Source of the DNA: a virus
IMG/VR virus record: IMGVR_UViG_3300004095_000001
Location: 1 to 35,624 of that record
Length of the DNA stretch: 35,624 nt
Reading direction: 5' to 3' (one strand)
Shown: positions 8,242 to 35,624 of the stretch, in pieces
How the letters are laid out: each line of letters begins with the position of its first letter
Position numbering within the stretch: the first letter of the stretch is position 1
Position numbers and translations under genes: made by a program
Notes under the pieces: model-generated
The model's database searches: none
Seen by the model: only the letters and a program-made list of their open reading frames with translations
What the model was told of the DNA's origin: nothing

Positions 8242-9236
8242 GCTGTAACCTTTATTAATTTATCGTATACTTTGTCGCAATGATCGCATTCAATTCCGCA
8301 AACTGTTTTACAATTATTAGTTAGCTGATTGAATCCTAGTTCAGTAATATCATTGATCAGTGTTAATGCCAATGGCATGTGACCTGTAGTGCTTAATATT
8401 TCACCGAATCTAACATTACCACTAGATCTTTGATAAGCGTCTACTACACGGGTCCATCTTTCGATAGGGTAACCTCTTCCGGCTAGTTTAATAACATCAA
8501 CTAAACCGTCAAACTTTCCTAAATCATTAGGAAATGTAAATGCTGTTTTAAGCCATTCGGCAGGACGTTCTTTAAAATAGCTAACACATCCTAGTTGATT
8601 GTGTACACTAGAAGTCAACTCTCTCTTGTCGTGTATCTTAACTTGACTTATAATTAAATCGTCCCATTGTTTCCATTTACAATCTACTATACATCCTTCA
8701 TTAACTAGCATGGTAATTTTAATATCATGCTGTTTGGCATACGCACTCATCTTGCGTAAGGTATCTAAGTCTCTATTTAAACTTCGATCTACAATGATAT
8801 TTGTAAGATGTAACACTTCATGCATAAAAATAAAATCTTTAAGTGTACGTACTAAGTTGTTTACACTATTTTTTAATACAATATCAGGCTTATGTTTTTG
8901 AAAATCTTTAATAATATTAGATCTAAGCAAATAAGAATTATTAAGAGTTACCATATCCACGTCAATATTTTTAACGTGCTCTATTAAATCAAACACTTGT
9001 CCATAAAATTCATTACTATACAAACTAGGGTTAATAAGATAATGTAGTTTTATACCGTATTTGTTTCGTACGGCATACAATTCATCAAACATTTCTTTTG
9101 AGCCGAACAAACTTCTAGCACTACCAAATTTATTGTCGCTAAAATACACATCGGAGATAGAATCAACATCAAGGTCTTCTAAAGCTCCAAGTATTCCTGG
9201 TGTATAAGGTATACTAAATTTACGGTGTGTAGACAT
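8238..9236 (-). CDS. Cys-rich U32/UbiU-like (possible Fe-S) protein
   Basis: A 332-residue protein that is not fibre-like. Its pattern of alternating strands and helices (SISDVYFSDNKFG, KLHYLINPSLYSNEFY, DMVTLNNSYLL, HLTNIIVDRSLNR, ITMLVNEGC) fits a TIM-barrel. It recalls peptidase-U32/UbiU-type proteins or SPASM-bearing radical-SAM relatives: NEGC-x3-C (Cys182, Cys186), a third Cys217 in LGCVSY, and IKLAGRGYPIERW near residue 249. A C-terminal cluster, C-x3-C-x3-C-x2-C (309, 313, 317, 320), could hold a second Fe-S site. No N-terminal CxxxCxxC radical-SAM motif is present. U32 relatives hydroxylate ubiquinone precursors or RNA bases, or cleave peptides; the reaction here is unknown. It overlaps the upstream fibre gene by 17 bases and is coupled to the next gene by ATGA. 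Family assignment is from memory of motifs. Confidence 0.55.
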   Translation of the reverse strand: MSTHRKFSIPYTPGILGALEDLDVDSISDVYFSDNKFGSARSLFGSKEMFDELYAVRNKYGIKLHYLINPSLYSNEFYGQVFDLIEHVKNIDVDMVTLNNSYLLRSNIIKDFQKHKPDIVLKNSVNNLVRTLKDFIFMHEVLHLTNIIVDRSLNRDLDTLRKMSAYAKQHDIKITMLVNEGCIVDCKWKQWDDLIISQVKIHDKRELTSSVHNQLGCVSYFKERPAEWLKTAFTFPNDLGKFDGLVDVIKLAGRGYPIERWTRVVDAYQRSSGNVRFGEILSTTGHMPLALTLINDITELGFNQLTNNCKTVCGIECDHCDKVYDKLIKVTA

Positions 9237-12063: not shown

Positions 12064-12089
12064 TTTCGCTCTGCTCTTTTAATATTCAA

Positions 12090-12097
12090 TATTTACC
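12090..12097 (-). promoter_or_regulatory. Possible degenerate late promoter GGTAAATA
   Basis: The octamer matches the late consensus at six of eight positions and lies 26 nt before the start at 12063, the same distance range as the exact boxes. It directly follows the stop codon of the upstream gene (12098). The two mismatches are at the first positions, so this is a weak call. Confidence 0.4.
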
Positions 12098-16008: not shown

Positions 16009-16009
16009 C

Positions 16010-16618
16010 TTATACTCCTACTAGTCCAGTTAAACTTTGAATACGAACTGTATAATCAATTTGTATTAAACGGTTTAAACTTTTTAAAACTGGGTGGAAT
16101 ATCACATGAGTCAATAATAACGCAGATCCGTCTGAATTATAACTTTGTAATCCTAATTCGTCAAATACAAAAGTAGCTTCTGTACTAGTTGCTGTATCAT
16201 ATGCGCCCTGGCCACTAGGTTCGCCGTAATCTAACAAACAAGTTACAAAAATGTCTGTATAGTTTGTACCGGTTACGTGGCGACTTTCAATAAAATTTCT
16301 GCTAGGGTCTAGGTTAGTACTGGAATTATTGTTTACAACTTTACTGTATGTTTCGTTGTACAAACTAGCATTAGTTCCGCTGGTATTTGGAGTCAAATAT
16401 GTAATAATTCCCGTAGGATCAATACTAGTTCCGCCATTACCGAATGCCATTTGATAAATGAACCCTTGTCCGCTATTAGCCATGCTTTCTGCTAGTGCTA
16501 TACTAATATTTTCATAGTGAATAGCATTACGTTTGTTTACGTAAATTTCTTTAGAAACCGGGTCGTGGATCTTAATATGACCCTCAATATGTATTCCTGT
16601 CGCGTCTTTAGTCTGCAT
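16010..16618 (-). CDS. Virion protein of unknown role, probably baseplate or fibre-linked
   Basis: A 202-residue protein. It begins MQTKDATGIHIEGHIKIHDP, followed by NKRNAIHYENISIALAESMA and MAFGNGGTSIDPTGIITYLT. I recall similar sequences among predicted structural proteins of large T4-superfamily phages but cannot name a T4 counterpart. The strand-rich body ends with a basic-hydrophobic segment (LKSLNRLIQIDYTVRIQSLT). It lies between the giant wedge protein and the collar fibre, has a late-promoter-like box 20 nt upstream, and likely starts a late transcript covering the first two fibre genes. A connector between baseplate and fibres would fit the position, but this is inference. Confidence 0.72.
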   Translation of the reverse strand: MQTKDATGIHIEGHIKIHDPVSKEIYVNKRNAIHYENISIALAESMANSGQGFIYQMAFGNGGTSIDPTGIITYLTPNTSGTNASLYNETYSKVVNNNSSTNLDPSRNFIESRHVTGTNYTDIFVTCLLDYGEPSGQGAYDTATSTEATFVFDELGLQSYNSDGSALLLTHVIFHPVLKSLNRLIQIDYTVRIQSLTGLVGV

Positions 16619-16638
16619 ATCAATCTCTCTTTATCTTA

Positions 16639-16646
16639 TATTTATC
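16639..16646 (-). promoter_or_regulatory. Late promoter-like box GATAAATA
   Basis: On the minus strand GATAAATA, one change from the T4 late octamer, lies 20 nt before the start at 16618, in the 47-base gap after the giant gene. The spacing equals that of the exact box at 7549-7556. Confidence 0.6.
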
Positions 16647-16665
16647 AAAGCCATTATCTGCTAGT

Positions 16666-19600
16666 TTAACTCTTGTAATCTGTATACCACACACCTGGAC
16701 TGACTTTTAAGAACTCAGAAATCTTGCTATTATCGTTTAAAATATTAACTGGATTGTTCTTGTTTCCGTCCCATGCTGTTCCGATTTGTTTGATTACAGT
16801 AATTTGAGTTCCTTTGTTTAGTAAATTAGTTAATGTTATGGATTTTGAAACACCGTCTACAGTAAAATCTGCCGGTAATTGAACATCACCTGCCGGACTG
16901 TAAGGATTAACATTAACATTGTGTACTTTGTATGGTTGTTTCTTTAATCGAATATTTCCAATAAAGAATGTCCAATTACTACTATCAGCACTAAATGTTG
17001 CTCCGGCAGTATGTGCCGTTGTACATCTATATGTATAACTACCTATGTTTACAATGTCACCAACATTATAACTAACACCAGATGCCCAAGAAGATCCATC
17101 ATTGTATCCGCCGACAAATACTTCAATATCACCCGGAACTTCTGCTACAATCGCATGAGTTTTAGCATTATGGATAGGATATAGTCCAGGAGCAAAACTT
17201 AAATTCACCGTACTTGTTCCATCACTAATAATTTGTTCAGTAATAGTAGTTTCAGTATATGGAATAGTTTCAGTTGGGCCAATATCTTGTACAAACGCAC
17301 CTGCTTTATGTAAAGTGTAAACACCTGTGCCTAAAGTTCCACGACGTAGTCTACTTAATACGTTGCCATTAATGGCAAAATATTCAATACGCTCGCCGCG
17401 AATTTCAATTACGCCTGGTTTGTTAGCTGTAGGATTTGGCACATCAAAGTTACTAGCATCTACCAATGTAATACTAGTATCATTCCAATGTAAATCGTTA
17501 GCAAGAGTGGTTCTCTTACTTAAACTTAAACGCTTATAACTTACACGATTCAACATATCTTTAAATTGCATGTAGGCAATTCCCGAAGATAATATGTTAC
17601 TTCCAAATGTAATAAACGTTAGTTGATCAGATCCTAATGGCAATGTTGCCAACTGGACACTTTGCTTATCATCATTTAATTTGTAATCAATTGTAGGTGT
17701 TAATAGTTTACCATTCTTTGTAATCCATACATAACTGTCACTCAATACAGTTCTTTCTAGTTTAATTAAACCAGATGCTAGATTTTTGTAATAATAGTAA
17801 TCAGCAGTATTTGGAGTTAATGAGACATTAGATGTAACATTAACGCTAGATCTTTGAATATCTAATACAGAATGATTATAAGAACTTATTACTTCTACAA
17901 CATGAGTATGGTCATAGGCTTGTGTAAATGTAATTGTTTGTGATTCTGGATTGTAAAAATAACTTTCATCCGTTGTAATACTTACTAATAACGTAGTTCC
18001 TGAATAAAGTGTGTAAGCATTTTTTGTCAATGTAATAGTAATTCCAGACAAATCTACAGTATAGTCCGATCCTAGATTTAATTTTATACCGTTAGCTATC
18101 ACATTAATATTTTGAATGGTTGCTGAGTATGGAATAATCTTTGCTGGATCAATATTATAGTTTAGTTGATTATTTTCAATTGTAAAATAGTTATCATTAG
18201 GGCCTGACAAAATAGTTTGGTCTACACGAACTATCATACTAGACTCGTATGGTAAACTTGTTCCGACAGGATATGCTAATGGATAAGTTAAACTTACACC
18301 ATTAGTTGCTATAATTTCTTTATTTGTTACTACAAATGTTTGTTGTGCTCCGCTGACAATAACAAAATTAATTAAACTACCAACTGTTGGAGGATTAATA
18401 AATTTAAATCCAACAGCATTAGCAAAATCATAAGTTGCGTCTGTTTTAAACAACTGAGGATTAGCAACAACTCCGTCAATATAAACAACTGCTGTTATAT
18501 CTTTGAGCCAAGGCGCTTTAGTTACAAATTCTGTAGTAGTTCCGTCTCCGACAAAATAATCAAGGTCAAGAATATTAGAACCAGCAAATCCTATATTAAA
18601 GACTGTTACAGTAGTTTTAGCTGGAGGTGTCGATAATAATGTAATTTTTTTATTTTTATAATCGACTGTATAATCTGTTTGATAAGTTTTTATAGTATTA
18701 CCAACTTTAACAATCAATGCTTTTGGACTGTTAGGTTGTTGTGTTAAAGTATATGTAGAAGTTGTTCCGTTGGCAATAAAATTGTCTGTCACAATATTTG
18801 CGGCACCCGAATTAGATCTATCATAAACTTTAATAGCCACAGCATCAACTACTTGTCCTGGAACAACTTCTTCTGGAGCAGGGCTTGTAGTTGGAGTAAC
18901 CATTCCGTCACCGTCAACTATAATATCATCTGCTGCCAAGCCGGTAGCTGTACTATATGCCAAATCACCGCCTACTAGAGAAGTGTCATAATCGTTGGCA
19001 TTTGGTAATATAGAACCATCGCTGGTACTACGTCTGATAATAAACTCATCACCGTTAGATACTGTATATCCACTAGGAATTGTAATTGTATATTGATATA
19101 ATCCAGGCGCAACTTGACTGTCTGGAGTTCCGGTAGCAATTGGAGATATCATTATAGCATTTTTATTTGTCTGTTGCTGTGTTCCATAATATGGATCATC
19201 TAATCTTACAGGACTAATTTTACCAGTAATATTAAGAACTGATAAATTAGACAACCCTGTAGGATACGTTGTACTATTAAGCACAGCAGTTCCGTTAGCA
19301 TTAATTGTTATATCAGTTGGTTGAGATAATGTTTTAGTAAATGTTAATTCAATATTTGGATTAATATCTGAATATAAAATTGAATTCAAAGCGACTGTTT
19401 GACTGTCAACGATACCTGTAACTGTTGAATTATAAATTAATGATTTAACTGTAGCGCAAGCTACAACATCTCCAACATTAATATATGTTGTATCTGAGAC
19501 TGTAAGCTGTGTACTACCAGCAAAGTTAAATGTAAAGATTAGTGTTCCGCTAGGAATACTATCAGGTGCTCTGTTCAATGTAACAGTATTAGTATCTTGA

Positions 19601-22600
19601 TTCACGCTAACAACTTTATGTATAGCACTACCAATGATAGTACCAGCTTGAGTCTTAGTGCCAGTTGCGGTACTTGCGTAACTTACACTTGTAGTAGTAC
19701 AAGCGGTAACTGTATAAGTTCCATTGTAAGCTACCGGCAATACATTATTAACAATAATTGTTTGACCTACGCTGTAAGGTGGAGCTGAAACAGTATCGAA
19801 TGTCAATGTAACAGTAGTACCATTTCCGCTTGCGCCAGTAGTTGTTAATACGGCTACGTTAGAACTAAATCCTACACCAATAATTCCCATGCCTGGCAAT
19901 ATGCCAGCGGCACTTGCCACAACTAAAGTTGTTTCATAGCTTCCGTTAGGATTGTATGTAGTAGAATGTCCGGCAGTATTAATGTGTGTAATAGTTGTTG
20001 CCACAGGACTGCTATCATTAATGTTATAACTAAATTCTAATTGATTATTATAAGTTCCAGTTCTGTTATCATAACTATCTACATTGTTTTTAATTTGATA
20101 AATGTTTAATTCTGTATTTGCGGCGGGCACATATGGCAATGTAAAACTATGTGTGTTAGCGGCAACTGTTACATAATAGTCGTCAAAACTACTGTCATAA
20201 TTGTCCCACTTGTCCTTATAGTAAGGACTAGATCCCCATCCTGTTTTTACATTGAACCCAAGTCCGTCAACAATAGTTCCGCCGTAATCGATACCAGTCA
20301 TAACCTGTGCTAGATCTTTACCTAACATTCCAGAACCTGGTTCGTAATAAAACTCAATACGATCCGCGGCATTAAGCATAGCTGTGTTAATTAGATATGT
20401 AACCGATAAAGTAGATCCTTTAGCTGGAGCATTTCCTACAGCAAATGTAATTAATCCAGAATATTGAGTGTATCCGTTCTTAGTTGAAACTACTGTACTT
20501 AATGTGTACAATTCTCTTAATACCGGAATACCATTAACTGTAATTGAACTTTGTCCAATTCTAATATCTGGCGCCCAAGTCAACGCAAATTTTAACTGGC
20601 TTCCATCACCGGCAAATGTTTGTGTTTGCTGCAATTGTGTTATATAGTTTGTATGGCTTACTCTATCAAACTTAATACCAATAGTAGTTGAACGAACAAC
20701 ACTTTCTCCAATTATTGCGATAGCTCTTGCTTGTACGCCAACAGTTGATAATCCGCCATCTAAGACAATTTCTGGAACTGACAAGTATCCACTACCAGGA
20801 GTTAACAATACCACTCGAGTTACAACACCGTTTTTAATAAATGCTCTACCAGTGGCACCCGATCCGCTAGTACTGTTAAACACTACATGAGGAGGAATAT
20901 TATATCCTGATCCGCCATCAATTAATATTAACTCAGTTACAACAAACCCTACATTATCTAACCAGAATTTCCAAGGATATGTTTGTATAGCACTATCACC
21001 TGCTACTAGTTTTCCGTTTTGTACAGTTACATCAATTAATCCAACTTTATCATTTTCATAAATTGGCATTAAATCAAAGTCAGTAATAGGTAATTGAGCA
21101 GTATCTAAACTTTCGTAATTGCTTACATATTCTCTAACTTTTGTTCTGTAAGGTTTTACTTCCGAAACATAATCTTCAAAATTTGACAAGTTGTCAACGG
21201 GGTAATTTACAGGTTGATCTAGCATTCCAACATTGTGTTGAGCTTTAACAAAACTAGTTTTAAAAATCCAATCTACATATACTTGCTCGCTCAATACATA
21301 ATGAACAGTATTGAAGAATAAATTTAAATATTCTTGTTTTAAATTGTCAATAAAGATATTATTTTTAATAGTGTTTAAAATAATTCTTAATTCTGTTGCG
21401 GCAACAACGTCAAATCCTTCTCCGTCAAAAATACTCGAATCGTAACCTACGTCAGTTAAAGCAAAATCATATAATTTACTGCTAAACTGTATAGTTCCAT
21501 TTTGTATACCAACTGTATTATAACTTTGTGTCCAGTCAACGCTGTTTACATTAGCAAATTTTTCTAATAATAACCAGCCGCCGTTATTTGATGTTCTAAT
21601 TCTAACAACTTGTCCAACTTGAATAGTTAATGAATTTAATTCAACAAATGTATCAACAGCATAATCTTCTAATGAATACTGACTATAACCAGAAGCATAC
21701 CAATCTGAATAAGACCAGTAATTTCTCACATCATAACTTTGTGTTAATGTTCTAGACCATTGTTTGTAAACAGGATCGTAAGTATAGATACTCCATTGAT
21801 TGTTTGCTTGACTATCGCTATGTACTAACACCGCGTAGTTTCTAATTACACAACGAGTATTACTATCGTAGCCAACACCGGAAGAAATAACAGTTGCGCC
21901 TGTTACTTGACCCAATGCGTTTATTGTTGCTCTAACTACGGCGCCTTGGCCAGAGCCAACAATTTCTATATAAGGGGAAGTAGCAATTCCATTTACGACA
22001 GAAACATATCCCTTACCTGCTGAATTTATAATAATTCCAGTAATTTGTCCGTTGTTAATAATAATAGGAACTAGATTAGGAACAGCAAAACTTGCCACGC
22101 TAGCATATGGTAATTCGGCATCTGTATCCAATATAGCATCATATAGCCCAGTAACTACTGTTGGTTCTTTATCGTAACTTTCCAAGGCACTAATATTAAG
22201 CTCGGCAACTTGATTAGTAATCATTACTTGATTAGCATATTCAATTAATTGTTTTAATGCTTCAAATCGATTAATAACCATACTTTGTCTTGGACGATTT
22301 TCAATTCCATAACGAATCTTAAACGGCAATCTTGGGTCAGGTACTACTTTTCCAAAACTGTCTATACCGCATAAACTATCAAACCATTTTTGTTCAATTG
22401 TCTTAGGTAAATCAATGTTTGGATCGTTGCTGATCATCTTGTACTGTGTATGTATATTTTGATCTGTTTTATCGATAGTCCAGAATTCTACAGATAACAC
22501 TACGTTAGATGAGGAAGTATATCCCTTAACATTAGTCAAACTAAATGTGTTTAATCCAGTAATACCTAAATAGGTGTAATCTTGTCCTCTTGGATTTGAT

Positions 22601-25600
22601 ATTAAGTTTGCTACATCCATAGCAGACATGTGACGTCCGTTTATATAAGGAGTAACTGCTTTATTTTTAACCCAGAAGTAATAGGTATTTTTAAATGTTT
22701 TACTAATCTTATCGTAAGATTGTGTGACACTATAAGCCTTATCACTATAAAGACTTTTGCCGCTAATTCCATCAGCTAGTCCAGCATTTGTATCTGCTTG
22801 AGCGTCCCATTGACTTGGTTTAAGATTAGAACTGACCCATTCGTAAATATCTATAGTAGCGCCAGTAGCTAATTGATTCCAAGTTGAATTTCTATAAACA
22901 ATATCTTGGTCATAGCTATTAATAAATTTAGCTGTTCTTAAATCCCACCATAACTGTCCAACTTGTTTATTAGACCAGATACTAGCAGTATTAACTACAA
23001 CATCACTAGTACCAATGCTATATACCGCAGGATCATAAAAAGTTTTGTATCTTATTTCTTCTTCTGCCGGTCCTGGAATTTTACCTTGTAATGGATCAAC
23101 TACATCTAAATATTTTAATAAACTTCCGTTTGTCTTATCATACAAGAATGCTTTTTTAATTTTTGTAATATCGGCAACAGGTGTTTGACTAGTATGAATT
23201 GTCCAAGTGTAAGTATTTGGTAATTTATAATAATTATAAATCACTCCAGAATTTGTAAAATTGTTTTCAGTAGCATTAGGAGCTCCTACAAAAATTTGGT
23301 TCACTCCAACAGAAAAACCAGCGCCAAGCGCATCACTAGAATTTCCAGTCATTGGAATAGTCTCACTGTAAACCCATTGTGTGTCATAACGATCGTAAAT
23401 GTCAATTCGTCCTGAAGAATTTACAGATGTATATACAACTAATGTATTGTAATCATTCATAAAGGAAATTTTAGTTCCAAAATGACTTGATATTGTAGAA
23501 CGTGGATGTACAAAAGTTGGAGTTCCTAAGTCGTACTGACCAGTTGCTAGTAAAGAATAAATTGCGACTACGCCAGTTGTAGATGCGGTATTATCACTAA
23601 TGGCAAGATATGTGCCATTATCCGAAATACTAATACCGGTAGCAAAAGTAGTTGTCGATCCAGAAATTGTCTGACTTAGAGTAAATCCTGATCCAGAATT
23701 TTTGTATACTCTAACATATCCACGACTGCCGCCGGTAGCTCCAATAGCTAATGTTAATCCATCATTGCTAACATTTATTGAACTACCAAAATTGTCGCCT
23801 GTGAATCCAGTGTAATTTGTTGAATATTGCCAATTGGTCGTAACGAAATTTAATATACCAGCTGGAGTGCTATCAGGACTTCCTGATAATTCAAGAGTAG
23901 TACTATTAATAACTGCGGTAACTGTTTGTCCGCTTGTAAATCCCACACCCTGTACTACTAGTCCAACTGTAATTCCTGTTGTACTAGTTACTACAAGTGT
24001 AGCATAGCTACTGCCAATTGGGTTATAGGCGGAACTTACTTTGACATTTGAAGTATAAATTAATTTGTAAACACGGCCAGCATTGTTATTGTAACCTGTG
24101 GCACCAATGTATAATTCGTTTGTATTAAATGCCAATGTTGCGCCAAACTGTTCTCCAGTAACGTAAGTAGGCTCTAATCCTATTGAAGGACTAACAATAG
24201 AATCAACTAATGAATAACTATTTCCAAAAGATCTTTTATATAAACTAACAACACCTTGATTAGTATATGAACTATTATTGCTAGGACTAGTAGTATCTAC
24301 AGGAACATATGATATTTGATTCCAAGCAGATACTCCGTAAGGATTAACTATTTGATAACTATTAACAAAACCAGAAATAGGTGTCGGCAATGTTATTAAT
24401 AAATCGTTAATAATATCAGTACCACCAACGCTACTACCTTTAATTAATATTTGATCTCCTGCCAAATATCCATTACCTGTAGCAGAAACTGTGACAACGT
24501 ATCCTGTTAAAACAGGTTTAACTGTAAATGTTGCGCCCGTACCTAATATTACACTGCCGCCTAGACTTGTATATGTTTGAGGAGGTGTACCTACACTATT
24601 TGCAGTAACTCCAGTAATAGCACCTGGAGATAATGTAGTTGTAGAGCCATTAATCGACGTTACTGTTATTGTTATGTCGTTAACTGTGTCAATTCCGCCA
24701 ACTTGAGATCCTAAAATAGTAATTTTGTTTCCTACTTTATAACCTGCGCCGCCTGAAACTACATTTACTGTATAAGTTGATCCAATTACTACAACGTTAA
24801 ATCTTGCGCCTTGAGCTTGATTTTGTGTAATACCTGTAACACCACTGTATTGATGTGACATATTACTTGTTACTTGATAATAATTTACACCATCAGTAAC
24901 AATAGATTTTGCTAGATAGTCTGTAGAATTAGGAACGGTATATATACCTTTATAATTAGTTGCTACATATCCAGAATTAGGACTACCAATAGCTAACCAT
25001 TGTTTGTCATTACTAATTGCCACAGTTGTTGCAGCAGAAGCTCTAGTATTTTTATTAACTGAACCGACACGTATGGTGAATCCTGTTCCAGTTCCGCCTA
25101 TGTGTGATGAGTCGACTGTTAATTGATCATTTACTTGATAATTTAAACCACCATAATTTAATATAATGTTTGACACTAAACCGTTAGTCACAGTCACTGT
25201 AGCTACAGCAGTTCCATCACCTGTTCCAGATCCTGTATAAATTAACGGAACATTGGCATACACGACTGTACCAACTGCTGGAGTATAACCTGAACCGCAA
25301 TTATTAGATACTTGTATTTCAACTGGTGTGTTTGAAGTTCCGCCTAAATATTTTTGATCTATTGTTAATACTTGGCCAGACACATATTGTGTGTTGTATC
25401 TTATTAGTTGAACATTAGTTACTACTCCGTTAGATACAGTTACGTTTGCTATGGCACCTGACCCAGTGCCGCCAGTCAATGGAACATTTGAATAAAGTTG
25501 AGTACCGTTAGTTGGTCTATATCCTGTGCCGCCTGATATCAATGATATACTTAAACCTAGGCCGGCTGTATTAAAAGATTCTATAGTACCTTGTACACCT

Positions 25601-28600
25601 GATGTAGTATAGTTTGCTGAAATAAATGGTGTTTGAATTAATTGATTTCTAGTCCAATTTGTTAGTACACCAGATTTTAAATAAATGGCTGTTTGTCCAT
25701 CGGATGAAGTTATTGCCGCAGTATCCCCAGTTTTGGTCATAGCGATTGCTCTGCCAAAGTTATGTCCATTACTTGCTATTTGATCGTTGATAGTTGTAGT
25801 ACTGTACACAGGATTATAAATCCAACTTGCCCAATTAGTACTAGTTGAAGATATATAGTCCGTCCATACTAATTGTCCAGCAACTGGAGTTGTTGGTAGT
25901 AACGACTCTAATTGGTCAATAGACGAATCTAACGAGCGTTGAGATACAAAATAGAATACTTCTATTGTAGACAAATCATTAAACGGAGCAAGTACTTGTT
26001 TAGGAGCAAGAGTGATAGTAAATGTATTTGTTGTAACTGCTGTAATAGCATAAAATCCATTTATTTTTGTTGTTCCTGTAATACCAATATAATCGCCAGC
26101 GGCAAAAGTCACTGTAGTGGGTACGGTGATTGTAACAGTATTAGGTGTAACAGAGGTGTTAGATGTTACAGAGCTTATAACTCCTGTAGCATATTTTAAT
26201 GTGTATCTATACACATTCCAATAGTAAGGCGGAGGAGCAAAAGCACACCATACATAATTTCCATCAACATATTTTGTAGGATCATACGATAGTATTTCTG
26301 ACAACTGACCTATACTTAAATTAACATCTTTTGAATTTACATAACCTGCGCTAGCTAGTAAAGGTTTATAATTTGAAAGCACTGGCCATAAGTTAGATTC
26401 GTAACCATTACTAGGCAAATAAACATCGCTAGGTAAAATTTGTATAATAAACGGATTTAAATTTTTATCAATTTTATCAGTTAATACATATCCTTGCGGA
26501 TTATTTCTTATAGTGCCTTCGTTAAGAACAAATTCTACTTGTTGGAAACTATTAGCGGCTCCGTATTGTCCCACACGAACTGCCCACTCTTCATAAAATA
26601 CTAAACTTTCTTTATTCTCACTGCTTAGTACATTGAATAATTTGTTAAGGACATTTTGTGTTCCTTTTTCACGAATCATTCCTTGATAGAATTTAAACTC
26701 ACTAACATCGTCTTGAATAATGTTATCCAGGTATTGACGTTTTTGATAGCCAATTAAATGCTGTCCCATTGCTTGCTGGGCACTATCAAAACTATCTACA
26801 TCTAAACTATAAAAATCTTGGAACTGTGTGGCAATATTTGTCCAGTTAGGCAATATTTGACTAGAAGGTTTGTGAGCTAATTCTGTCCATTTCGAAATAT
26901 CAAACACCGCAGTACCTGGCAAGAACTCGTTGGCACTATAATAATATCCTTGATAGTTTATGATATCTCCAAGATTGTAATCTTGCCATTGTTGCCAGTT
27001 TTGTATTTTTGCCGCATCAAATATAAATCCTGGAATATCTAATCCGCCATACCATCCGGTGGTGATATATCCTGATACTTTAATACGTTCTTGTCTATAG
27101 CCGCTTTCTGGATTATAAATTGTATCATTGAATATTGTAGTGTTATTAAGTATTACTACGTGTTCATGTTGAACTAGATAAAAACTTGCTCCATAAATTC
27201 CATCAGAATTTTTTGGATTATATGAAACAGTATTATTTTTTCTATAACTATCTAAATCCGCTGTGTTTATAGCTGTGCCGTTTACTTTAAATATTTCATA
27301 TTTGTTAAATGAATTATTAATATCATCAACAACATTTAAAGGTGTTATAAATTCAATATTGCCGGCTGCTGGACTTAAACTAATTACGCTAGCACCATCT
27401 ACACTTAGTCCATCTAATTTATTAAAGTCGTTATAATCAAATGCGTCTGATGCTGGAACATTTCTAGTGGCACTATAATATTCTCCATTGAATCTAACAA
27501 TGGTACCGTATGGCACTACAATGTTAGGAGTCCAATCGCTCCATTTATCTTTTCCAGAACTCCAGTTTTGTGTAGTCCAGAACATAAATTCTTTAGCACT
27601 AGTTTCCCAGTTGCTAACAACACCCAAGTTTGTATTGTACTGATTAAAAATAAAACCTTGATCTTTTAAATATTCACCGTAGCCTAATAAAAAGTCAACT
27701 ACATCTTGAACTTTCTTAAATGTTAAACCGTATGGTGCTGTTAATATTTCTGTCTTATCCCAAGACTTTCTAAAATTAGCAGTTACTCCGCCGTTAACTG
27801 GAAGGAATGGCATGGCAACAAATTGTGTGCTGTCAAATGAAGCACCAGTAGTTGTCAAAGTCAATGCTTTATAATAACCGTTATTATATTTTATAATACT
27901 TCCGGCCGCATATTGTTCATTTGCTGTCCAGTTTGAAAAGTTTTCTGAAATTCCGCCAACGTTAATATTTGGTCCAGGTTGACTATAATTGTAATAGTTA
28001 AAGAAAGGTTGTGTTAAACTATAACCGCTTACTTGGAAACCATCCTGTAATCGAGTAATAATAACACCGCTATAAGATAATTTCTTAGTTGGACTGGAAC
28101 TATTTAAAAATACAGAATAATCTTCCTTTGGAATAAAAACACTTCCCGAACTACTAGGAGTTTTACTTTCTAGTAATAAATTAAACTGATCTTGATTTGT
28201 AAATGATCCTACTCTATATGCTAATCGAACATTCATCGATGTTAAATCGTTAGCATAACCTTCGTAAGATTTTAGATTATTGCTAAAGATATAATTTAAA
28301 ATAAGATTAACAACATAGTTAATAATACCAGCAGTTTGTACTCGAGTTGTACTTGAATAAACACTAGGCAATATAACATCTTGTGGTCTAATTCTTAATC
28401 CGGTATCTTTATAAATTAATTGTCCGGCTTTATTTCTTACAATTCGACTTCTATCTAATAATACGCCAAATGTTTTAGCCGGTGTTAACAACATACTAGT
28501 TATTAACACACTAAATGGATAATGACTACTACGTCTCCAGCTAGATTCGACTGGAGCAACATCTCCAAAGACAAATTCAAAATCAATGCTAGGTGTTACT

Positions 28601-31600
28601 TGTCCCAATGCTAATGATGAAAATAATGGGCTCACAAGATTTCCAGATTCGTCTACTGGAATATGATTAATTAAAAATGGTTTAACATAATCGGCAAGAT
28701 ACACCGGAGGCTTACCTGGTTCTCTTAACATACCGTCTGCGATATCCTGCCACATTACACGATTGTCGCTAGTATAAGGAGCTGGTCCATAGACTTGTGT
28801 CCACCAACTAGGCTCTATACTAAGACCTAGCATTTCCCAAGGACAAATATTTGGACGGTCAGTGTTTAATAACCAACGATATACGCCTCTCCAATATCCT
28901 GGCAAACTTGTTCCGTCTGGGGCACTATTGTTTCTATAGTTGTAAGTAAAACTATTACTAATGTCGTAACTTAAAGGCTTACTAAAATTAACACCTACGT
29001 CTTTAGCCCAACGATAAAAATTAGGTGCTAGAACTTTATTAAATTCTTCTCTAGTATAAACGTTTGTTTTATTATAGTTTGGAATAACACTATTAATATC
29101 GTAAACACTAGGATCATATTCAACTTTAATATTATTAAAAATACGCTTTTCTAATTCTAAAATTAATCCATCTCTGTAATCGCCATACGCCAATACTTGA
29201 CTTCCATCGTGTCCTTGAATCATTAGTTGCGGAGCAATTAATGTAGTATCTAAATAAATTTTAGGTTCAAACTTTGGATAAATTCCTAACTTTGTCGGTG
29301 TTTCTGGTACAAAACAACCATCTGTACTTTCATACTCTAAAGTAGTAAGTGTATCACCATTGTTCATAGATAAAGAATTATCTATTACAACAAATCCTTG
29401 ATTATTAAATGTATAATCTTTTCCGTATGTCAATTGAACATCATTTAAGTACACACCAACTGCTTTATTAGACAATGTGTCTAAAGTAAATACCGCAGTT
29501 AACGGATATGTTTTAATTCTGTAGTCAACAATTTTTATATCTGTGCGTAAACTTGCTCCATAAGGAATCATATCACTAAAATAATATGGAGCCGTATTAG
29601 GTTTATTAGAATTAATTCTTTCTAAAATAACATCGACTAGTTTAACTGGGTCGCCATCAACACCTAAATTTTCAGCTGTGGTGATAAAAATTCGTTTAAA
29701 ATGATTATAATCGTCTCTGCTTTGTTCAATGGCTCGTACAATATTATTAGATTCACTAGTAATATGATACATTGACAAACTCATTGGGCCGCTATGTTGA
29801 ACAAACTTAGTACCATACGCCGCAGTATTACCGAGATCTCTTAAGTTGCTAGTTCCTGGAAATGCGCCAACGAATAATGTTTCTAAATTATCTACAATGC
29901 TATTAACATGATCTGAAACTTCACCTAACGTAAAATCTCCCATAGTATTGTTTAATGGGTTATTTTGTAAGTTGATAGGAATTTCATAATAACCATTTTT
30001 GTTAATAGGCTGAGAAGCAAATGCCTTAATAGTTAATACGTCAGTTAATGCTATCGGTGTTGTTAAAACAATACGCTTATACTGTTGACCATCAACGATT
30101 GACCATAGGCTTGCGTCTAATCGTTTTCCATTAATATAAACTCTAACTACTAAATCATTTAAATTTGAAATATCATCAAAAATATCTAAATTAAAATTAT
30201 TTGTTTTATTAGAATTTTCATAAATTCGAATGGCCGCTTGTGTATTATTAACTACTGAAGTTTGCCAGCCATTTTCATAAACAGTATTACCAGCATAATC
30301 TTGACCAACAATATAGCCTACATTAACATTCTTTGTTATTAATGCGGTGCCTTGTTTATATTGAAAATTATCTGTAGCAAGGTTAAAGTTAAAAACAATA
30401 TCGCCTATATTGCTGACATTTTTATAACTTAAAGCAAATCCTAAAGTTGTATCAGCTAGCCCCGAACCAACTTTGTAAGAAAAGACTTTAGTTCCTAAAA
30501 AAGTTGAACCAGGGTAAACGCTAGTATCGCCATAACTAACACCATTGTCGTCAACAACATCAAATAAAGGAGGTTGATTAGTGTTAGTTTTTTGTTGGCT
30601 CTTAATCCAAGTTGTACCATTAAACCAGTACATAAAACTTTGATTAGTAATGCCTTGATTAACTAAAACTGTTTGATTTAATTCAGGAGAAGCTATTTCA
30701 ACAAGATGTAGTTGTTTACTGCCATTGCTAAGATGTTTAACATCAACAAATTCTACTCGATAAATTTTGTTTGCTACAAGCGGATCTGTATCTGCTGTAA
30801 ACAAAATTGTTTGATTGGCTGTTAACGGAATACCATCAATGTTATAGCCTGAAGAACCTTCTATTGTAGAAAATACGTCTGTTGTAAAATTGTCAATTAA
30901 GTCAATATCTGCGATAGCAGTAGTTCCAAAATTAAACAATTTTAAATCTGCTTCAAATTCAATAATAGGTCGAGTTGCTCTTGCTAATTGATTTAAATTA
31001 GGAACATCGCCATTTAATTTTGCGCTGGCTATAATTACATCTTGATGGAACCAACGGTTATATCTACTCCAAGGATTGTGATCTCGGCTAGCACGATTAA
31101 TAACAATATAATCAGCAACTGCAGCATAGCCTGTAGCATCACTAAACGGCTCCTGGTCAAAAGGTGTATTATCAAACTCGACTGTTTGAGATAATGTATA
31201 AGGACTTACAATTTCTAAAATTGATTGAGATACTAATTTAATAGCAGTACCGACACCTTCTACATAATAACTACCGGTGGCATATTTTGTTGGGGTAACA
31301 TTTCCACCAAACTTAACTTTCATTCCGTTACTTAATGGAGTTCCGTCAGTTAATTTATATGTCTTTTTACCTAATACGTCTGCTTCTATATCAATATATG
31401 TATTCTGGTCAATGTCGAATATTTCAATTACGCCACCAAGATTAATATCATTTTCACTTTGATAGTAAATCATAGTAGGAGCATCATCAGCAACAGTCCA
31501 TGTAATTGTGCCTTGTTGTACTCCGTAATTGTCTATACCAGCATTTAAATATCTGTCTACTTTACCAGTAGTTCTAGATAATTTAAAACTAAACGCATTA

Positions 31601-32211
31601 CCTGGGCTATTAATTTCAAATGTATAAGTTTGTCCGCGATATAATTTTAGTACAGGATTAGGAGTAAATCCATTAGGAGTAAACACATATTGTGAATCTT
31701 CTCCAACCGCAACTAAGTCTACAGTATAGGTACTGGTTACTTTTTGTTGCTGTCCATATACTGTAACTGGCTCAGGACCGTATGGTAGCCAATAGTAGTT
31801 TTGAAAATTAACTACTTTGTCCCAGTCAATATGTGGATCCCAACTATAAAATTCTTCGGAGTTTAATCTAGAATGGTTCGCAGTATTGCCGCCAAACACT
31901 CCTAGTTGATTGATATAGTCAATGTAGTCTTTATAAAAAGTTACATTGTTTAAACTATCTTGAATTACTACACTAGGTTCTAGTTGATAATTTTGTCTGC
32001 TTGTTTCAGCGGCTGTTACATAAATGTCTGAACCAGTCGCGGCTTTGGCATTTTTTCTTCCGATGAACCCATTAATCTTTTTTACTGAGCCTGGTTGATA
32101 TAATTGATCAAGCGTTGCTTGTAAAAACTTTTTATTACTTTTACTTTGATAAAATGCTGGTAATAAATTAGATGTAAGGTTGTTGTTTCCAAAAGGCGTA
32201 TTATTAGCCAT
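16666..32211 (-). CDS. Giant 5,181-residue baseplate/tail structural protein
   Basis: One uninterrupted frame of 15.5 kb. It starts 8 bases inside the gp6-like gene (GGAGC ribosome site) and takes the place of T4 genes 7 and 8 in gene order. The N-terminus (LLPAFYQSKSNKKFLQATLD, DHNPWSRYNRWFHQDVI near residue 380) resembles virion proteins of large phages. Residues about 1425-1780 hold three aromatic modules like CBM5/12 (YNNGYYKA, FNGEYYSA, YQGYYYSA); a fourth is near 5040 (GVSYNVGDIVNIGSYTYRCT). Residues about 2150-3010 contain seven FG-GAP-like blades, with Gly-rich inserts after the first and second. Gly-rich GSGY repeats recur near 3400 and 3760. Residues 3830-4800 are repeated beta-sandwich segments, and about 4885-4990 is a domain with GERIEYFAINGNVLSRLRRG. 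No enzymatic motif was found. Likely outer wedge plus host-surface contact; function inferred. Confidence 0.85.
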   Translation of the reverse strand: MANNTPFGNNNLTSNLLPAFYQSKSNKKFLQATLDQLYQPGSVKKINGFIGRKNAKAATGSDIYVTAAETSRQNYQLEPSVVIQDSLNNVTFYKDYIDYINQLGVFGGNTANHSRLNSEEFYSWDPHIDWDKVVNFQNYYWLPYGPEPVTVYGQQQKVTSTYTVDLVAVGEDSQYVFTPNGFTPNPVLKLYRGQTYTFEINSPGNAFSFKLSRTTGKVDRYLNAGIDNYGVQQGTITWTVADDAPTMIYYQSENDINLGGVIEIFDIDQNTYIDIEADVLGKKTYKLTDGTPLSNGMKVKFGGNVTPTKYATGSYYVEGVGTAIKLVSQSILEIVSPYTLSQTVEFDNTPFDQEPFSDATGYAAVADYIVINRASRDHNPWSRYNRWFHQDVIIASAKLNGDVPNLNQLARATRPIIEFEADLKLFNFGTTAIADIDLIDNFTTDVFSTIEGSSGYNIDGIPLTANQTILFTADTDPLVANKIYRVEFVDVKHLSNGSKQLHLVEIASPELNQTVLVNQGITNQSFMYWFNGTTWIKSQQKTNTNQPPLFDVVDDNGVSYGDTSVYPGSTFLGTKVFSYKVGSGLADTTLGFALSYKNVSNIGDIVFNFNLATDNFQYKQGTALITKNVNVGYIVGQDYAGNTVYENGWQTSVVNNTQAAIRIYENSNKTNNFNLDIFDDISNLNDLVVRVYINGKRLDASLWSIVDGQQYKRIVLTTPIALTDVLTIKAFASQPINKNGYYEIPINLQNNPLNNTMGDFTLGEVSDHVNSIVDNLETLFVGAFPGTSNLRDLGNTAAYGTKFVQHSGPMSLSMYHITSESNNIVRAIEQSRDDYNHFKRIFITTAENLGVDGDPVKLVDVILERINSNKPNTAPYYFSDMIPYGASLRTDIKIVDYRIKTYPLTAVFTLDTLSNKAVGVYLNDVQLTYGKDYTFNNQGFVVIDNSLSMNNGDTLTTLEYESTDGCFVPETPTKLGIYPKFEPKIYLDTTLIAPQLMIQGHDGSQVLAYGDYRDGLILELEKRIFNNIKVEYDPSVYDINSVIPNYNKTNVYTREEFNKVLAPNFYRWAKDVGVNFSKPLSYDISNSFTYNYRNNSAPDGTSLPGYWRGVYRWLLNTDRPNICPWEMLGLSIEPSWWTQVYGPAPYTSDNRVMWQDIADGMLREPGKPPVYLADYVKPFLINHIPVDESGNLVSPLFSSLALGQVTPSIDFEFVFGDVAPVESSWRRSSHYPFSVLITSMLLTPAKTFGVLLDRSRIVRNKAGQLIYKDTGLRIRPQDVILPSVYSSTTRVQTAGIINYVVNLILNYIFSNNLKSYEGYANDLTSMNVRLAYRVGSFTNQDQFNLLLESKTPSSSGSVFIPKEDYSVFLNSSSPTKKLSYSGVIITRLQDGFQVSGYSLTQPFFNYYNYSQPGPNINVGGISENFSNWTANEQYAAGSIIKYNNGYYKALTLTTTGASFDSTQFVAMPFLPVNGGVTANFRKSWDKTEILTAPYGLTFKKVQDVVDFLLGYGEYLKDQGFIFNQYNTNLGVVSNWETSAKEFMFWTTQNWSSGKDKWSDWTPNIVVPYGTIVRFNGEYYSATRNVPASDAFDYNDFNKLDGLSVDGASVISLSPAAGNIEFITPLNVVDDINNSFNKYEIFKVNGTAINTADLDSYRKNNTVSYNPKNSDGIYGASFYLVQHEHVVILNNTTIFNDTIYNPESGYRQERIKVSGYITTGWYGGLDIPGFIFDAAKIQNWQQWQDYNLGDIINYQGYYYSANEFLPGTAVFDISKWTELAHKPSSQILPNWTNIATQFQDFYSLDVDSFDSAQQAMGQHLIGYQKRQYLDNIIQDDVSEFKFYQGMIREKGTQNVLNKLFNVLSSENKESLVFYEEWAVRVGQYGAANSFQQVEFVLNEGTIRNNPQGYVLTDKIDKNLNPFIIQILPSDVYLPSNGYESNLWPVLSNYKPLLASAGYVNSKDVNLSIGQLSEILSYDPTKYVDGNYVWCAFAPPPYYWNVYRYTLKYATGVISSVTSNTSVTPNTVTITVPTTVTFAAGDYIGITGTTKINGFYAITAVTTNTFTITLAPKQVLAPFNDLSTIEVFYFVSQRSLDSSIDQLESLLPTTPVAGQLVWTDYISSTSTNWASWIYNPVYSTTTINDQIASNGHNFGRAIAMTKTGDTAAITSSDGQTAIYLKSGVLTNWTRNQLIQTPFISANYTTSGVQGTIESFNTAGLGLSISLISGGTGYRPTNGTQLYSNVPLTGGTGSGAIANVTVSNGVVTNVQLIRYNTQYVSGQVLTIDQKYLGGTSNTPVEIQVSNNCGSGYTPAVGTVVYANVPLIYTGSGTGDGTAVATVTVTNGLVSNIILNYGGLNYQVNDQLTVDSSHIGGTGTGFTIRVGSVNKNTRASAATTVAISNDKQWLAIGSPNSGYVATNYKGIYTVPNSTDYLAKSIVTDGVNYYQVTSNMSHQYSGVTGITQNQAQGARFNVVVIGSTYTVNVVSGGAGYKVGNKITILGSQVGGIDTVNDITITVTSINGSTTTLSPGAITGVTANSVGTPPQTYTSLGGSVILGTGATFTVKPVLTGYVVTVSATGNGYLAGDQILIKGSSVGGTDIINDLLITLPTPISGFVNSYQIVNPYGVSAWNQISYVPVDTTSPSNNSSYTNQGVVSLYKRSFGNSYSLVDSIVSPSIGLEPTYVTGEQFGATLAFNTNELYIGATGYNNNAGRVYKLIYTSNVKVSSAYNPIGSSYATLVVTSTTGITVGLVVQGVGFTSGQTVTAVINSTTLELSGSPDSTPAGILNFVTTNWQYSTNYTGFTGDNFGSSINVSNDGLTLAIGATGGSRGYVRVYKNSGSGFTLSQTISGSTTTFATGISISDNGTYLAISDNTASTTGVVAIYSLLATGQYDLGTPTFVHPRSTISSHFGTKISFMNDYNTLVVYTSVNSSGRIDIYDRYDTQWVYSETIPMTGNSSDALGAGFSVGVNQIFVGAPNATENNFTNSGVIYNYYKLPNTYTWTIHTSQTPVADITKIKKAFLYDKTNGSLLKYLDVVDPLQGKIPGPAEEEIRYKTFYDPAVYSIGTSDVVVNTASIWSNKQVGQLWWDLRTAKFINSYDQDIVYRNSTWNQLATGATIDIYEWVSSNLKPSQWDAQADTNAGLADGISGKSLYSDKAYSVTQSYDKISKTFKNTYYFWVKNKAVTPYINGRHMSAMDVANLISNPRGQDYTYLGITGLNTFSLTNVKGYTSSSNVVLSVEFWTIDKTDQNIHTQYKMISNDPNIDLPKTIEQKWFDSLCGIDSFGKVVPDPRLPFKIRYGIENRPRQSMVINRFEALKQLIEYANQVMITNQVAELNISALESYDKEPTVVTGLYDAILDTDAELPYASVASFAVPNLVPIIINNGQITGIIINSAGKGYVSVVNGIATSPYIEIVGSGQGAVVRATINALGQVTGATVISSGVGYDSNTRCVIRNYAVLVHSDSQANNQWSIYTYDPVYKQWSRTLTQSYDVRNYWSYSDWYASGYSQYSLEDYAVDTFVELNSLTIQVGQVVRIRTSNNGGWLLLEKFANVNSVDWTQSYNTVGIQNGTIQFSSKLYDFALTDVGYDSSIFDGEGFDVVAATELRIILNTIKNNIFIDNLKQEYLNLFFNTVHYVLSEQVYVDWIFKTSFVKAQHNVGMLDQPVNYPVDNLSNFEDYVSEVKPYRTKVREYVSNYESLDTAQLPITDFDLMPIYENDKVGLIDVTVQNGKLVAGDSAIQTYPWKFWLDNVGFVVTELILIDGGSGYNIPPHVVFNSTSGSGATGRAFIKNGVVTRVVLLTPGSGYLSVPEIVLDGGLSTVGVQARAIAIIGESVVRSTTIGIKFDRVSHTNYITQLQQTQTFAGDGSQLKFALTWAPDIRIGQSSITVNGIPVLRELYTLSTVVSTKNGYTQYSGLITFAVGNAPAKGSTLSVTYLINTAMLNAADRIEFYYEPGSGMLGKDLAQVMTGIDYGGTIVDGLGFNVKTGWGSSPYYKDKWDNYDSSFDDYYVTVAANTHSFTLPYVPAANTELNIYQIKNNVDSYDNRTGTYNNQLEFSYNINDSSPVATTITHINTAGHSTTYNPNGSYETTLVVASAAGILPGMGIIGVGFSSNVAVLTTTGASGNGTTVTLTFDTVSAPPYSVGQTIIVNNVLPVAYNGTYTVTACTTTSVSYASTATGTKTQAGTIIGSAIHKVVSVNQDTNTVTLNRAPDSIPSGTLIFTFNFAGSTQLTVSDTTYINVGDVVACATVKSLIYNSTVTGIVDSQTVALNSILYSDINPNIELTFTKTLSQPTDITINANGTAVLNSTTYPTGLSNLSVLNITGKISPVRLDDPYYGTQQQTNKNAIMISPIATGTPDSQVAPGLYQYTITIPSGYTVSNGDEFIIRRSTSDGSILPNANDYDTSLVGGDLAYSTATGLAADDIIVDGDGMVTPTTSPAPEEVVPGQVVDAVAIKVYDRSNSGAANIVTDNFIANGTTSTYTLTQQPNSPKALIVKVGNTIKTYQTDYTVDYKNKKITLLSTPPAKTTVTVFNIGFAGSNILDLDYFVGDGTTTEFVTKAPWLKDITAVVYIDGVVANPQLFKTDATYDFANAVGFKFINPPTVGSLINFVIVSGAQQTFVVTNKEIIATNGVSLTYPLAYPVGTSLPYESSMIVRVDQTILSGPNDNYFTIENNQLNYNIDPAKIIPYSATIQNINVIANGIKLNLGSDYTVDLSGITITLTKNAYTLYSGTTLLVSITTDESYFYNPESQTITFTQAYDHTHVVEVISSYNHSVLDIQRSSVNVTSNVSLTPNTADYYYYKNLASGLIKLERTVLSDSYVWITKNGKLLTPTIDYKLNDDKQSVQLATLPLGSDQLTFITFGSNILSSGIAYMQFKDMLNRVSYKRLSLSKRTTLANDLHWNDTSITLVDASNFDVPNPTANKPGVIEIRGERIEYFAINGNVLSRLRRGTLGTGVYTLHKAGAFVQDIGPTETIPYTETTITEQIISDGTSTVNLSFAPGLYPIHNAKTHAIVAEVPGDIEVFVGGYNDGSSWASGVSYNVGDIVNIGSYTYRCTTAHTAGATFSADSSNWTFFIGNIRLKKQPYKVHNVNVNPYSPAGDVQLPADFTVDGVSKSITLTNLLNKGTQITVIKQIGTAWDGNKNNPVNILNDNSKISEFLKVSPGVWYTDYKS

Positions 32212-35200
32212 TAGATGCTCCGTTTGTTGCGCTGGTTATATTTTGTGTGTTAATAACGGTTGTTAATGCTTCGCCGGTTATTGTTTTAAGATTGGCACTG
32301 GTTAAGCCTGATACAATAACAATATCACTAGCTTGGGCACAGCTTATAAAAATCTGATTGCTAGGACATTGTATTTCAAATAAGCTACCAAAGTACTGTC
32401 CTGCTTGTTTTGGAACAATAACAAAACTAGTAATATCTGGATTTAATTGTGTTAATATGTAAGTCGATAATTCTGTAAAATAAAATGTATCGCCAAAGTC
32501 CCAATTATCTAAATTAAAGAATGCATTAATAGCTGTTAAAATACGTGCTATAATATTTGAATTACTAGCAGTACTACTTGGATTTCGAACTACATTAAAT
32601 GTAGCTTGAAGACTTAAATCGGCTTGTGCGCCAAATAATAATTTATAACTTACAGGATGATACACAATCTCGTCGCTGATTGATTTAATTAAATTCAAGT
32701 TAGGACTTAATTGAGTGTTCAATTGATTACTGCTTGGGGGTAACGGTTCTACTGAAGTTGCTCCAATAACCCATTGTCTAAAAGCAGTATCGTATGTTTT
32801 TGTTAGAACAAAAACATCCATAATGTTACTTGCGCTTGGATCAATTCTACTGTCATAATCGGCACTATGAGTATATTGGAATTTTAAATTGTCGCGACCT
32901 ACATAAACTTTATAGTCTAGTGTTGGAACAAATCCTTCACCATTTACATATTGAGACACATAATTAGCATCTACAAAATAATAATACTGACCATTAACTC
33001 CACTACCTGGCTTAGTTGGTAATATTATTACAGGGCCTTTAGCAGAATCATTGCTTACATAACGATAGTCTTCTTCACCCTGACTAATTAGATATTTTTC
33101 TTGAACAACAAATGTTGTAGCACTGTCAGGCGAAACAATATCTAAAAACAGTTGAGGATTATCTACAATACCACTGTTAGTACTGTCAGCAAAACTAACA
33201 ACAATTTTACTAGGATCAATATAGCCATCTTGTCCGTTATATTCACTGACAACATCCCAGTTATAGTTTAATGTAAATGGGCTAGTAGAGCCTGGTTGTG
33301 TGTTTATGCTTAATATTTTTATGTTGTCTTTAACAATAGCCGTATTAACTACATCATAGATCTTTGTATTTGTATCAAAATAGAATGTAACTTGAGCATC
33401 ACTTTCAAACACATAACGTAATTCTCTTGTAGTTACTGTGTAATATTCGTTATTAGTAGTAAACAATAATATCCAACTAGAATCCTTGTTAGCGTTGGTA
33501 AGGTCGCCTTGATTACCTAAACTAAATGAATCAGTTGTGTTTAAGTTTGTTTCAAATATAATTTGCCAGCTTTGTGTAGATCCGTTGTAACTTAATCCAA
33601 ATGGTTTATTAGCAAATACTAAATCAATTATTGTTGTTATTACGGTACTACTAAACGTACGAGTAAAACTAGGAATAATTTGACTTATAATTGCGCCCTC
33701 TGGAATTGACTTGTTTAACATTATAGCGCCATAGCCACTAGACAAGACACCTGTATATGAACTACTAACTAATAGTCCTCTGCCATCACCCGATACTGAA
33801 ACTACTTCAGCCCATATATACGAGCTTGCGCCAGCTTGATTTATATTGCTAGTAGATAATATGTTGTTGTTAGTTGTATCAAAATATTGTGTTCCTGGAT
33901 TTGGTACGGTAAATTGAATTAAAGAACCAGGAGTCAAATATTGTAATGATGTATTAGTGTAACTACCAACTTGTAATGGACTAGAGTTAGTAGTTGTATC
34001 AATATAGCCTGTTGAATTTGTAGTACTAGAAGTTACTTGATTCCATGCAATATTACTGTTAGATAAAGAAATTACATATTGTTGATAAAAGAAATTTCTT
34101 AAATTAGGATCATTTAATATATCATAAATTTGTCCTAAAATTACACCTTGAATGTCAGTTTGAGTTATGTAACTAAAAGTAGAACTAGCTATAAAAGGCT
34201 CTCTGTAGATAACACCATCGTCGGCAAATAAATTAGTACTAGAATATTTTCCAGTAGGATCCACTAGGTCAAAATAACGACTAATACCACTACTTGTTCT
34301 ATTAAGAGCTTTAACTTTAGCAACGTCTGTACTAGAACTTAACGGACTAATATTATAGTCTTCTCCGGTAATCATACGATTTTGTGTATAGTATGTTTGA
34401 GGAGCGTTTGTTTTAACACTTGCGTTTGTTTCACTTGTAGCAGAATTTGATACTGTAGTTTGTAAAGATAAACTAATACTTAAAATTTCACTTGTGCCTG
34501 TAGCACTAGTGTATGGAATATCTATAGAAACATTTCTAATATCTGTTGGCGCAACTGTATAGGTTAGATTGTTACTAACTCTATAATAAGTTCTAAAATT
34601 ACCTAATGGTAAATCACCAAACGTGCCATCACTGAATTGTAAACTAATAGCATCAGTTGCTCTAGTAACTACACTATAAATTGTTTTAATCTTACTGTTT
34701 AAACTATTATAGATAATATTATTACCTAGTGTTGATGGCACTTGTGTCCATAATGTCGATTCGATTCCGTTTGAATCTAATTGGTATAACCAAAGATCTG
34801 TATCATTTATATTTTGTGTAGCAATATCAATTTGTTGATTGCTACTAGGCTGGGTAACTGTAAAGTTACCTACTCCTAGTGAACCTTGTGTAAAATTAAA
34901 AAAGAATCCAGTGCCTGCGCTACCTGCTCCATAGCCGTCATCTTTGTAAACACAAGCTATACTGTTGGCGATTTTTGGAGGTTCTTCGTAGATGTATGTT
35001 TGATTTTTAAAGGTAGTACTAGTTACTTCAAAATTCATATTACGGCCAGCAACTGGTTTGGTAAAACTATAAACTGGAACATCTGAATTAGTTGCGTTAA
35101 ATCTATACTGAGCAGTAGGTACTCCATATATAGTTGCTTTATCTGCTGGATTTCCATACTGTTGTGTTTGTGGCATTGCGGCATTTAACACACTGATAAA

Positions 35201-35624
35201 TTGGTCATACCAATTAGGATTACTGCTGTCGTTCCAAGTAATATATTGTCCTGATAAATTTCTACCGTTGCTGTCTAAAACAGATTCTGTAGTAGAAATA
35301 ACATTAAATTTTAATAAACCAGTTGCCGCAGTATTACGCTTTGCGTTATAACCAATCATACGTGCTAAACGTAACACGCTGTCACGACGGCTAGCAAGCT
35401 CTAAAAAGTTTTCACGAGCATTTAAATCAACACGGAAAGCTATGCTTTGGCCCACGTAGGCTATAAGATCAATTAGGGCAAGGTATTCGCTAGATTCAAT
35501 ATAATCGTTAAAATCTTCAGGAAAATTAGTACGGATATAGTCAATCATTGTACGACGTAAATTGTCAAAGTCGTAGCTTTGGAAGTCTGCGTTCTTAAAT
35601 GATTGATAAATTTTCTGCCAGTCC
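32204..35624 (-). CDS. 6: Baseplate wedge protein, T4 gp6-like (5' end outside window)
   Basis: The open frame continues past the ATG at 35548 to the window edge; the 25 upstream codons read DWQKIYQSFKNADFQSYDFD then NLRRT. The ATG is therefore internal and at least 1,139 residues are present. The N-terminal signature is very close to T4 gp6: YDFDNLRRTMIDYIRTNFPE, ESSEYLALIDLIAYVGQSIA, FRVDLNARENFLELASRR. The end also matches (FFNLDNWDFGDTFYFTELST, VIVPKQAGQYFGSLFEIQCP, DIVIVSGLTSANLKTI), as does DSRIDPSASNIMDVFVLTKT. In T4, gp6 dimers with gp7 form the wedge core that holds the baseplate together and transmits the contraction signal. T4 gp6 is about 660 residues; this version is far longer, the extra length lying in strand-rich Ser/Thr/Asn segments in the middle. 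It overlaps the giant gene by 8 bases. Confidence 0.93.
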   Translation of the reverse strand, partial: DWQKIYQSFKNADFQSYDFDNLRRTMIDYIRTNFPEDFNDYIESSEYLALIDLIAYVGQSIAFRVDLNARENFLELASRRDSVLRLARMIGYNAKRNTAATGLLKFNVISTTESVLDSNGRNLSGQYITWNDSSNPNWYDQFISVLNAAMPQTQQYGNPADKATIYGVPTAQYRFNATNSDVPVYSFTKPVAGRNMNFEVTSTTFKNQTYIYEEPPKIANSIACVYKDDGYGAGSAGTGFFFNFTQGSLGVGNFTVTQPSSNQQIDIATQNINDTDLWLYQLDSNGIESTLWTQVPSTLGNNIIYNSLNSKIKTIYSVVTRATDAISLQFSDGTFGDLPLGNFRTYYRVSNNLTYTVAPTDIRNVSIDIPYTSATGTSEILSISLSLQTTVSNSATSETNASVKTNAPQTYYTQNRMITGEDYNISPLSSSTDVAKVKALNRTSSGISRYFDLVDPTGKYSSTNLFADDGVIYREPFIASSTFSYITQTDIQGVILGQIYDILNDPNLRNFFYQQYVISLSNSNIAWNQVTSSTTNSTGYIDTTTNSSPLQVGSYTNTSLQYLTPGSLIQFTVPNPGTQYFDTTNNNILSTSNINQAGASSYIWAEVVSVSGDGRGLLVSSSYTGVLSSGYGAIMLNKSIPEGAIISQIIPSFTRTFSSTVITTIIDLVFANKPFGLSYNGSTQSWQIIFETNLNTTDSFSLGNQGDLTNANKDSSWILLFTTNNEYYTVTTRELRYVFESDAQVTFYFDTNTKIYDVVNTAIVKDNIKILSINTQPGSTSPFTLNYNWDVVSEYNGQDGYIDPSKIVVSFADSTNSGIVDNPQLFLDIVSPDSATTFVVQEKYLISQGEEDYRYVSNDSAKGPVIILPTKPGSGVNGQYYYFVDANYVSQYVNGEGFVPTLDYKVYVGRDNLKFQYTHSADYDSRIDPSASNIMDVFVLTKTYDTAFRQWVIGATSVEPLPPSSNQLNTQLSPNLNLIKSISDEIVYHPVSYKLLFGAQADLSLQATFNVVRNPSSTASNSNIIARILTAINAFFNLDNWDFGDTFYFTELSTYILTQLNPDITSFVIVPKQAGQYFGSLFEIQCPSNQIFISCAQASDIVIVSGLTSANLKTITGEALTTVINTQNITSATNGASNG

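Follow-up and report, generated by a model that had tools for sequence, protein, structure and literature searches.

A giant structural protein at the gp7 position of an environmental phage belongs to a known family of jumbo-phage virion proteins

Introduction

The closest described relatives of the locus reported here are the jumbo-phage proteins of PHROG 10938, which include PA5oct gp355, Atu_ph07 gp180, RaK2 gp465/ORF070w, 121Q 582, CBB_236 and phAPEC6 gp245. Homologues lie directly after gp6, in the gene order gp25-gp6-giant, in PA5oct (3,857 aa), Atu_ph07 (4,449 aa), Phosso (4,555 aa), RaK2 (3,326 aa), 121Q (3,323 aa) and CBB, and lengths across the six isolates compared range from 3,323 to 4,555 aa. 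Several of these proteins have been detected in virions: the record of PA5oct gp355 carries an ESI-MS/MS mark, CBB_236 yielded 21 peptides by mass spectrometry of virions (PMC5259590), and phAPEC6 gp245 (381.9 kDa) yielded 17 virion peptides and sits beside gp244, a baseplate wedge protein (PMC7247149). We take phAPEC6 gp245 to be a putative homologue because its size and place match, an assignment made from these two features. Baseplates measure 35 nm in RaK2 (PMC3622015) and 36.4 nm in CBB (PMC5259590).

Cyanophage proteins at the same place, annotated as gp7 or wedge initiator, can be as large as the protein described here or larger, reaching 7,312 aa in P-SSM4 and 5,195 aa in P-SSM2; that of ACG-2014f has 4,225 aa. 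The P-SSM4 gene is a single frame without a stop (2445-24383), followed directly by gp9, and that genome has no annotated gp8. Because jumbo-phage and cyanophage proteins of this order were already known after gp6, neither the size nor the position of the protein described below is new.

Results

We analyzed a window of 35,624 nucleotides, the stretch covered by IMG/VR virus record IMGVR_UViG_3300004095_000001 (Table 1). A prior sequence-only reading had described an intact 15.5-kb frame of 5,181 residues that follows a clear gp6 homologue with an 8-base overlap and fills more than 40 percent of the window, and each of these points was confirmed: the frame begins with ATG, has zero internal stops, takes up 43.6% of the window, and its start overlaps the end of gp6 at position 32204 by 8 bases. 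It is no chance reading frame, because at least 31 environmental loci hold complete, uninterrupted homologous frames. The preceding gene matched phrog_10646, "baseplate wedge subunit" (8.5e-284, profile search), and its family profile matched T4-type gp6 with 97.9% probability (HHalign). Its frame is open up to base 35623 and the alignment with PA5oct gp6 begins at about residue 15; the ATG at 35548, which would give a 1,114-aa ORF, is not the true gp6 start, since both the open frame and the alignment extend beyond it.

Table 1 Features of the giant gene and its neighbours in window coordinates
Feature	Position	Strand	Basis
Giant structural protein, 5,181 aa, gp7 position, PHROG 10938	16666..32211	-	ORF and profile match
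gp6 baseplate wedge homologue, cut by window edge, ~14 N-terminal residues missing	32204..35624	-	Profile and PA5oct alignment
Residues 1-1910, conserved N-terminal block, in all relatives	26482..32211	-	Comparison with relatives
Residues 159-266, domain also found in P-SSM4 gp9 and at the C-terminus of phrog_677 (baseplate wedge tail fibre connector)	31414..31737	-	Profile match
Residues 1428-1465, chitin-binding (CBM5/12-type) module	27817..27930	-	Pfam, AlphaFold model
Residues 1560-1600, CBM5/12-like motif	27412..27534	-	Pattern only
Residues 1739-1780, CBM5/12-like motif	26872..26997	-	Pattern only
Residues 1780-1870, conserved segment with FYQGMIREKG (1841-1850), candidate gp7 core (helix-KG-helix)	26602..26874	-	Weak match, in register
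Residues 2150-3000, variable region, seven FG-GAP/propeller-blade-like repeats	23212..25764	-	Motifs, sub-cut-off Pfam
Residues 3000-3750, second and third conserved blocks	20962..23214	-	Comparison with relatives
Residues 3757-3817, GSGY-type module, also at several places of P-SSM4 gp7	20761..20943	-	Sequence comparison
Residues 4878-4966, C-terminal module common to PA5oct, 42.7% identity	17314..17580	-	Sequence comparison
Residues 5035-5075, chitin-binding module CBM5/12	16987..17109	-	Above Pfam cut-off
Companion gene of 202 aa (phrog_11259), domain with tail-collar-fibre-type fold	16010..16618	-	Profile, fold search

We assign the giant protein to PHROG 10938, "virion structural protein", most of whose conserved parts it matches (2e-207, 6e-89 and 2e-23 for three overlapping thirds); the gene lies directly after gp6 in the window as in the relatives. 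Relatives are encoded by at least 586 IMG/VR viral-contig stretches. Among the matches listed, 31 of the 80 loci kept (the 31 including some near-duplicates) carry complete homologous frames of 4,433-5,262 aa, so the protein of the window is large, yet its length lies between the extremes of its group. Short matches to one search profile at other places in some contigs resemble hits to single modules. Preceding the giant in SCTP-2 is a gene for 3,096 aa (10609-19899), which is not annotated as gp6 and is far longer than the gp6 of the relatives. In a 345-kb IMG/VR record, one in-frame TAG (3757-3759) at a conserved position breaks an otherwise intact giant gene and is either a sequencing error or real.

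The giant is modular in make-up, with carbohydrate-binding-type domains, and its conserved blocks alternate with two variable regions. Conservation with distant relatives is concentrated at residues ~1-1910, 3000-3340 and 3490-3750, and the regions least shared with close relatives are ~2200-2700 and ~4000-4300. Pfam recognized CBM5/12 above its cut-off near residue 5042 and below it near residue 1427, and an AlphaFold model of residues 862-2000 (mean pLDDT 76) matched only chitin-binding domains in the PDB (Foldseek). Seven FG-GAP-like motifs, read by eye between residues 2151 and 2997 with a sub-threshold Pfam match, suggest a beta-propeller. A PDB sequence search found no structure of any family member. 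When the giant was searched for gp7, gp8, gp9, gp10, gp11 and gp12 with Pfam, PHROG, PDB sequences and HHalign, the chitin-binding modules and the domain common to the wedge connector family were all that emerged.

Positions 9220-12063 encode a 947-aa tail-fibre-like protein in which tandem repeats (10248-10720) specify NVTGNVTG runs, and three neighbours (5456-7528, 12098-13747 and 13747-16008) begin like it. A 332-aa protein encoded between fibre genes (8238-9236) had no Pfam match; several radical SAM genes occupy a similar place in Atu_ph07 and Phosso. PA5oct, Atu_ph07, Phosso and SCTP-2 all have the 202-aa companion gene behind the giant, and it is common in viral contigs. Its product had no match in the PDB, and its best named matches in BFVD are tail-collar-fibre-like (E ~1e-3). 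As a candidate for gp8 it was rejected, having no sequence match to gp8 and a fold that resembles tail-collar fibre proteins.

T4-type profiles detected no separate gp7 or gp8 in six clade records longer than 280 kb, nor in any of the jumbo records searched, which included Atu_ph07, PA5oct, RaK2, Phosso, SCTP-2 and the 345-kb IMG/VR record, and the same profiles did recover the controls, T4 and cyanophage ACG-2014f, which bears out the earlier remark that these genes are not seen separately. The full-length T4-type gp7 profile matched the giant with a probability below 1% (HHalign), giving no profile-level homology. Foldseek searches with the model of residues 862-2000, in which the KG region is of low confidence, found no gp7 or gp8 in the PDB, and HHalign gave nothing significant for either.

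One segment nevertheless resembles the gp7 core, which is itself recognizable between cyanophages and T4 (97%, 5e-11, HHalign). A helix-KG-helix motif at residues 1841-1866 aligns in register with the core common to T4 and cyanophage gp7 and is the top HHalign match of that core within residues 1-1910, at a weak E of 0.02-0.09; with the segment chosen beforehand and cyanophage sequences in the core profile, E was ~5e-4 to 3e-3. Depending on profile and stretch, probabilities varied from 1 to 33% and pairwise E from 5e-4 to 0.09. The cyanophage core scored 24.3 at the motif against 21.5 in the best of 74 control windows, and the combined core scored 21.0, not above all 74. Deeper profiles from further scans left the match in the doubtful range. 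Because segment 1780-1870 was picked by eye, we count the match as a lead, one that lends weak sequence-based support to a gp7 identity. An N-terminal LP motif, compared with cyanophage gp7, was rejected for want of statistical support.

Discussion

By its slot, the giant is probably gp7, and we read it as most likely a wedge protein in the gp7 position, made up of conserved blocks and two variable regions. We favour, with some reserve, the fuller proposal that the gene, from a jumbo myovirus related to T4, encodes a wedge-located structural protein bearing a long multidomain arm. Within the baseplate wedge the protein would bind gp6, a contact probably made by a helical core like that of gp7, and the remainder would form the arm, carrying sugar-binding and exchangeable domains outward for either surface contact or fibre anchoring. 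It may replace gp7, and perhaps gp8 too, as the sole large protein there, and not as a demonstrated fusion. This proposal draws on the PHROG 10938 match (2e-207), the gp6-giant order, the homologues in virions, the failure to detect any other gp7 or gp8 in long genomes of the clade, the T4 gp7 core of the cyanophage proteins that hold this slot under a gp7 annotation, and the KG motif in register; it is weakened by the weak core match, the null full-length profiles, the null Foldseek result for residues 862-2000 and the unsupported LP motif.

The same negative searches agree with a different account, in which the giant lies at the baseplate periphery or serves as a receptor-binding protein, is non-homologous to gp7 and only fills the slot, a gp7 too diverged for detection being encoded elsewhere. 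Its chitin-binding and propeller-like modules would suit a receptor-contact protein, and neither sequence comparison nor the fold search of residues 862-2000 gave a significant match to gp7. Against this stand the pairing with gp6, kept across very distant phages, the KG motif in register and the profile searches, which produced no other gp7 candidate; we regard the peripheral account as possible and the less probable of the two. Far less credible is the true gp7-gp8 fusion in one chain proposed by the sequence-only reading. The lack of a detectable separate gp8 in the clade records longer than 280 kb would fit a fusion, as would the P-SSM4 order gp6-gp7-gp9. However, the gp8 profile matched neither the giants nor the 202-aa neighbour nor the 7,312-aa gp7 of P-SSM4 (HMM, HHalign), and gp8 is encoded by its own gene in ACG-2014f and P-SSM2, whose gp7 is similarly large.

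What stands of the proposed outer wedge with a mosaic of receptor-contact domains is the gp7 slot (gp25-gp6-giant), the carbohydrate-binding-type modules and the status of a virion protein, for which homologues in PA5oct, phAPEC6 and CBB virions speak, this evidence coming from relatives and not from the phage of the window; no gp7 or gp8 fold was found by HHalign or, for residues 862-2000, by Foldseek. The predicted baseplate of unusual size was not supported either: RaK2 and CBB, with shorter homologues of ~3,300 aa, have baseplates of 35-36 nm, so the presence of a giant protein does not by itself imply a baseplate of exceptional size. We think it unlikely, though conceivable, that the gp7 core is split, its first helix being N-terminal and the KG hairpin lying near residue 1841, with ~1,800 inserted residues between them. 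Were it so, the arm would lie before the core in T4, mostly after it in cyanophages and inside it in the giant's clade, and one wedge protein would have been enlarged in three different ways.

The giant is a large new addition to an already known family and does not define a novel type of baseplate. In this abundant environmental jumbo-phage group, very large proteins in the gp7 slot are usual rather than exceptional, and the conserved segment 1780-1870 and the two variable regions are now named, with their roles open to testing.

The PHROG 10938 proteins of isolates share the three conserved blocks and the post-gp6 place with the giant, and differ from its 5,181 aa in length (at most 4,555 aa), the extra sequence comprising residues ~1910-3000 and the C-terminal part. 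T4 gp7 (1,032 aa) and gp8 (334 aa) share the wedge operon position and possibly the helix-KG-helix core, but the giant has no significant sequence match to gp7 and none at all to gp8. The cyanophage giant gp7 proteins resemble it in post-gp6 slot, size class and GSGY-type modules (P-SSM4, 6e-7); unlike it, they have a clear T4 gp7 core within their first 200-700 residues, and the two show no overall homology.
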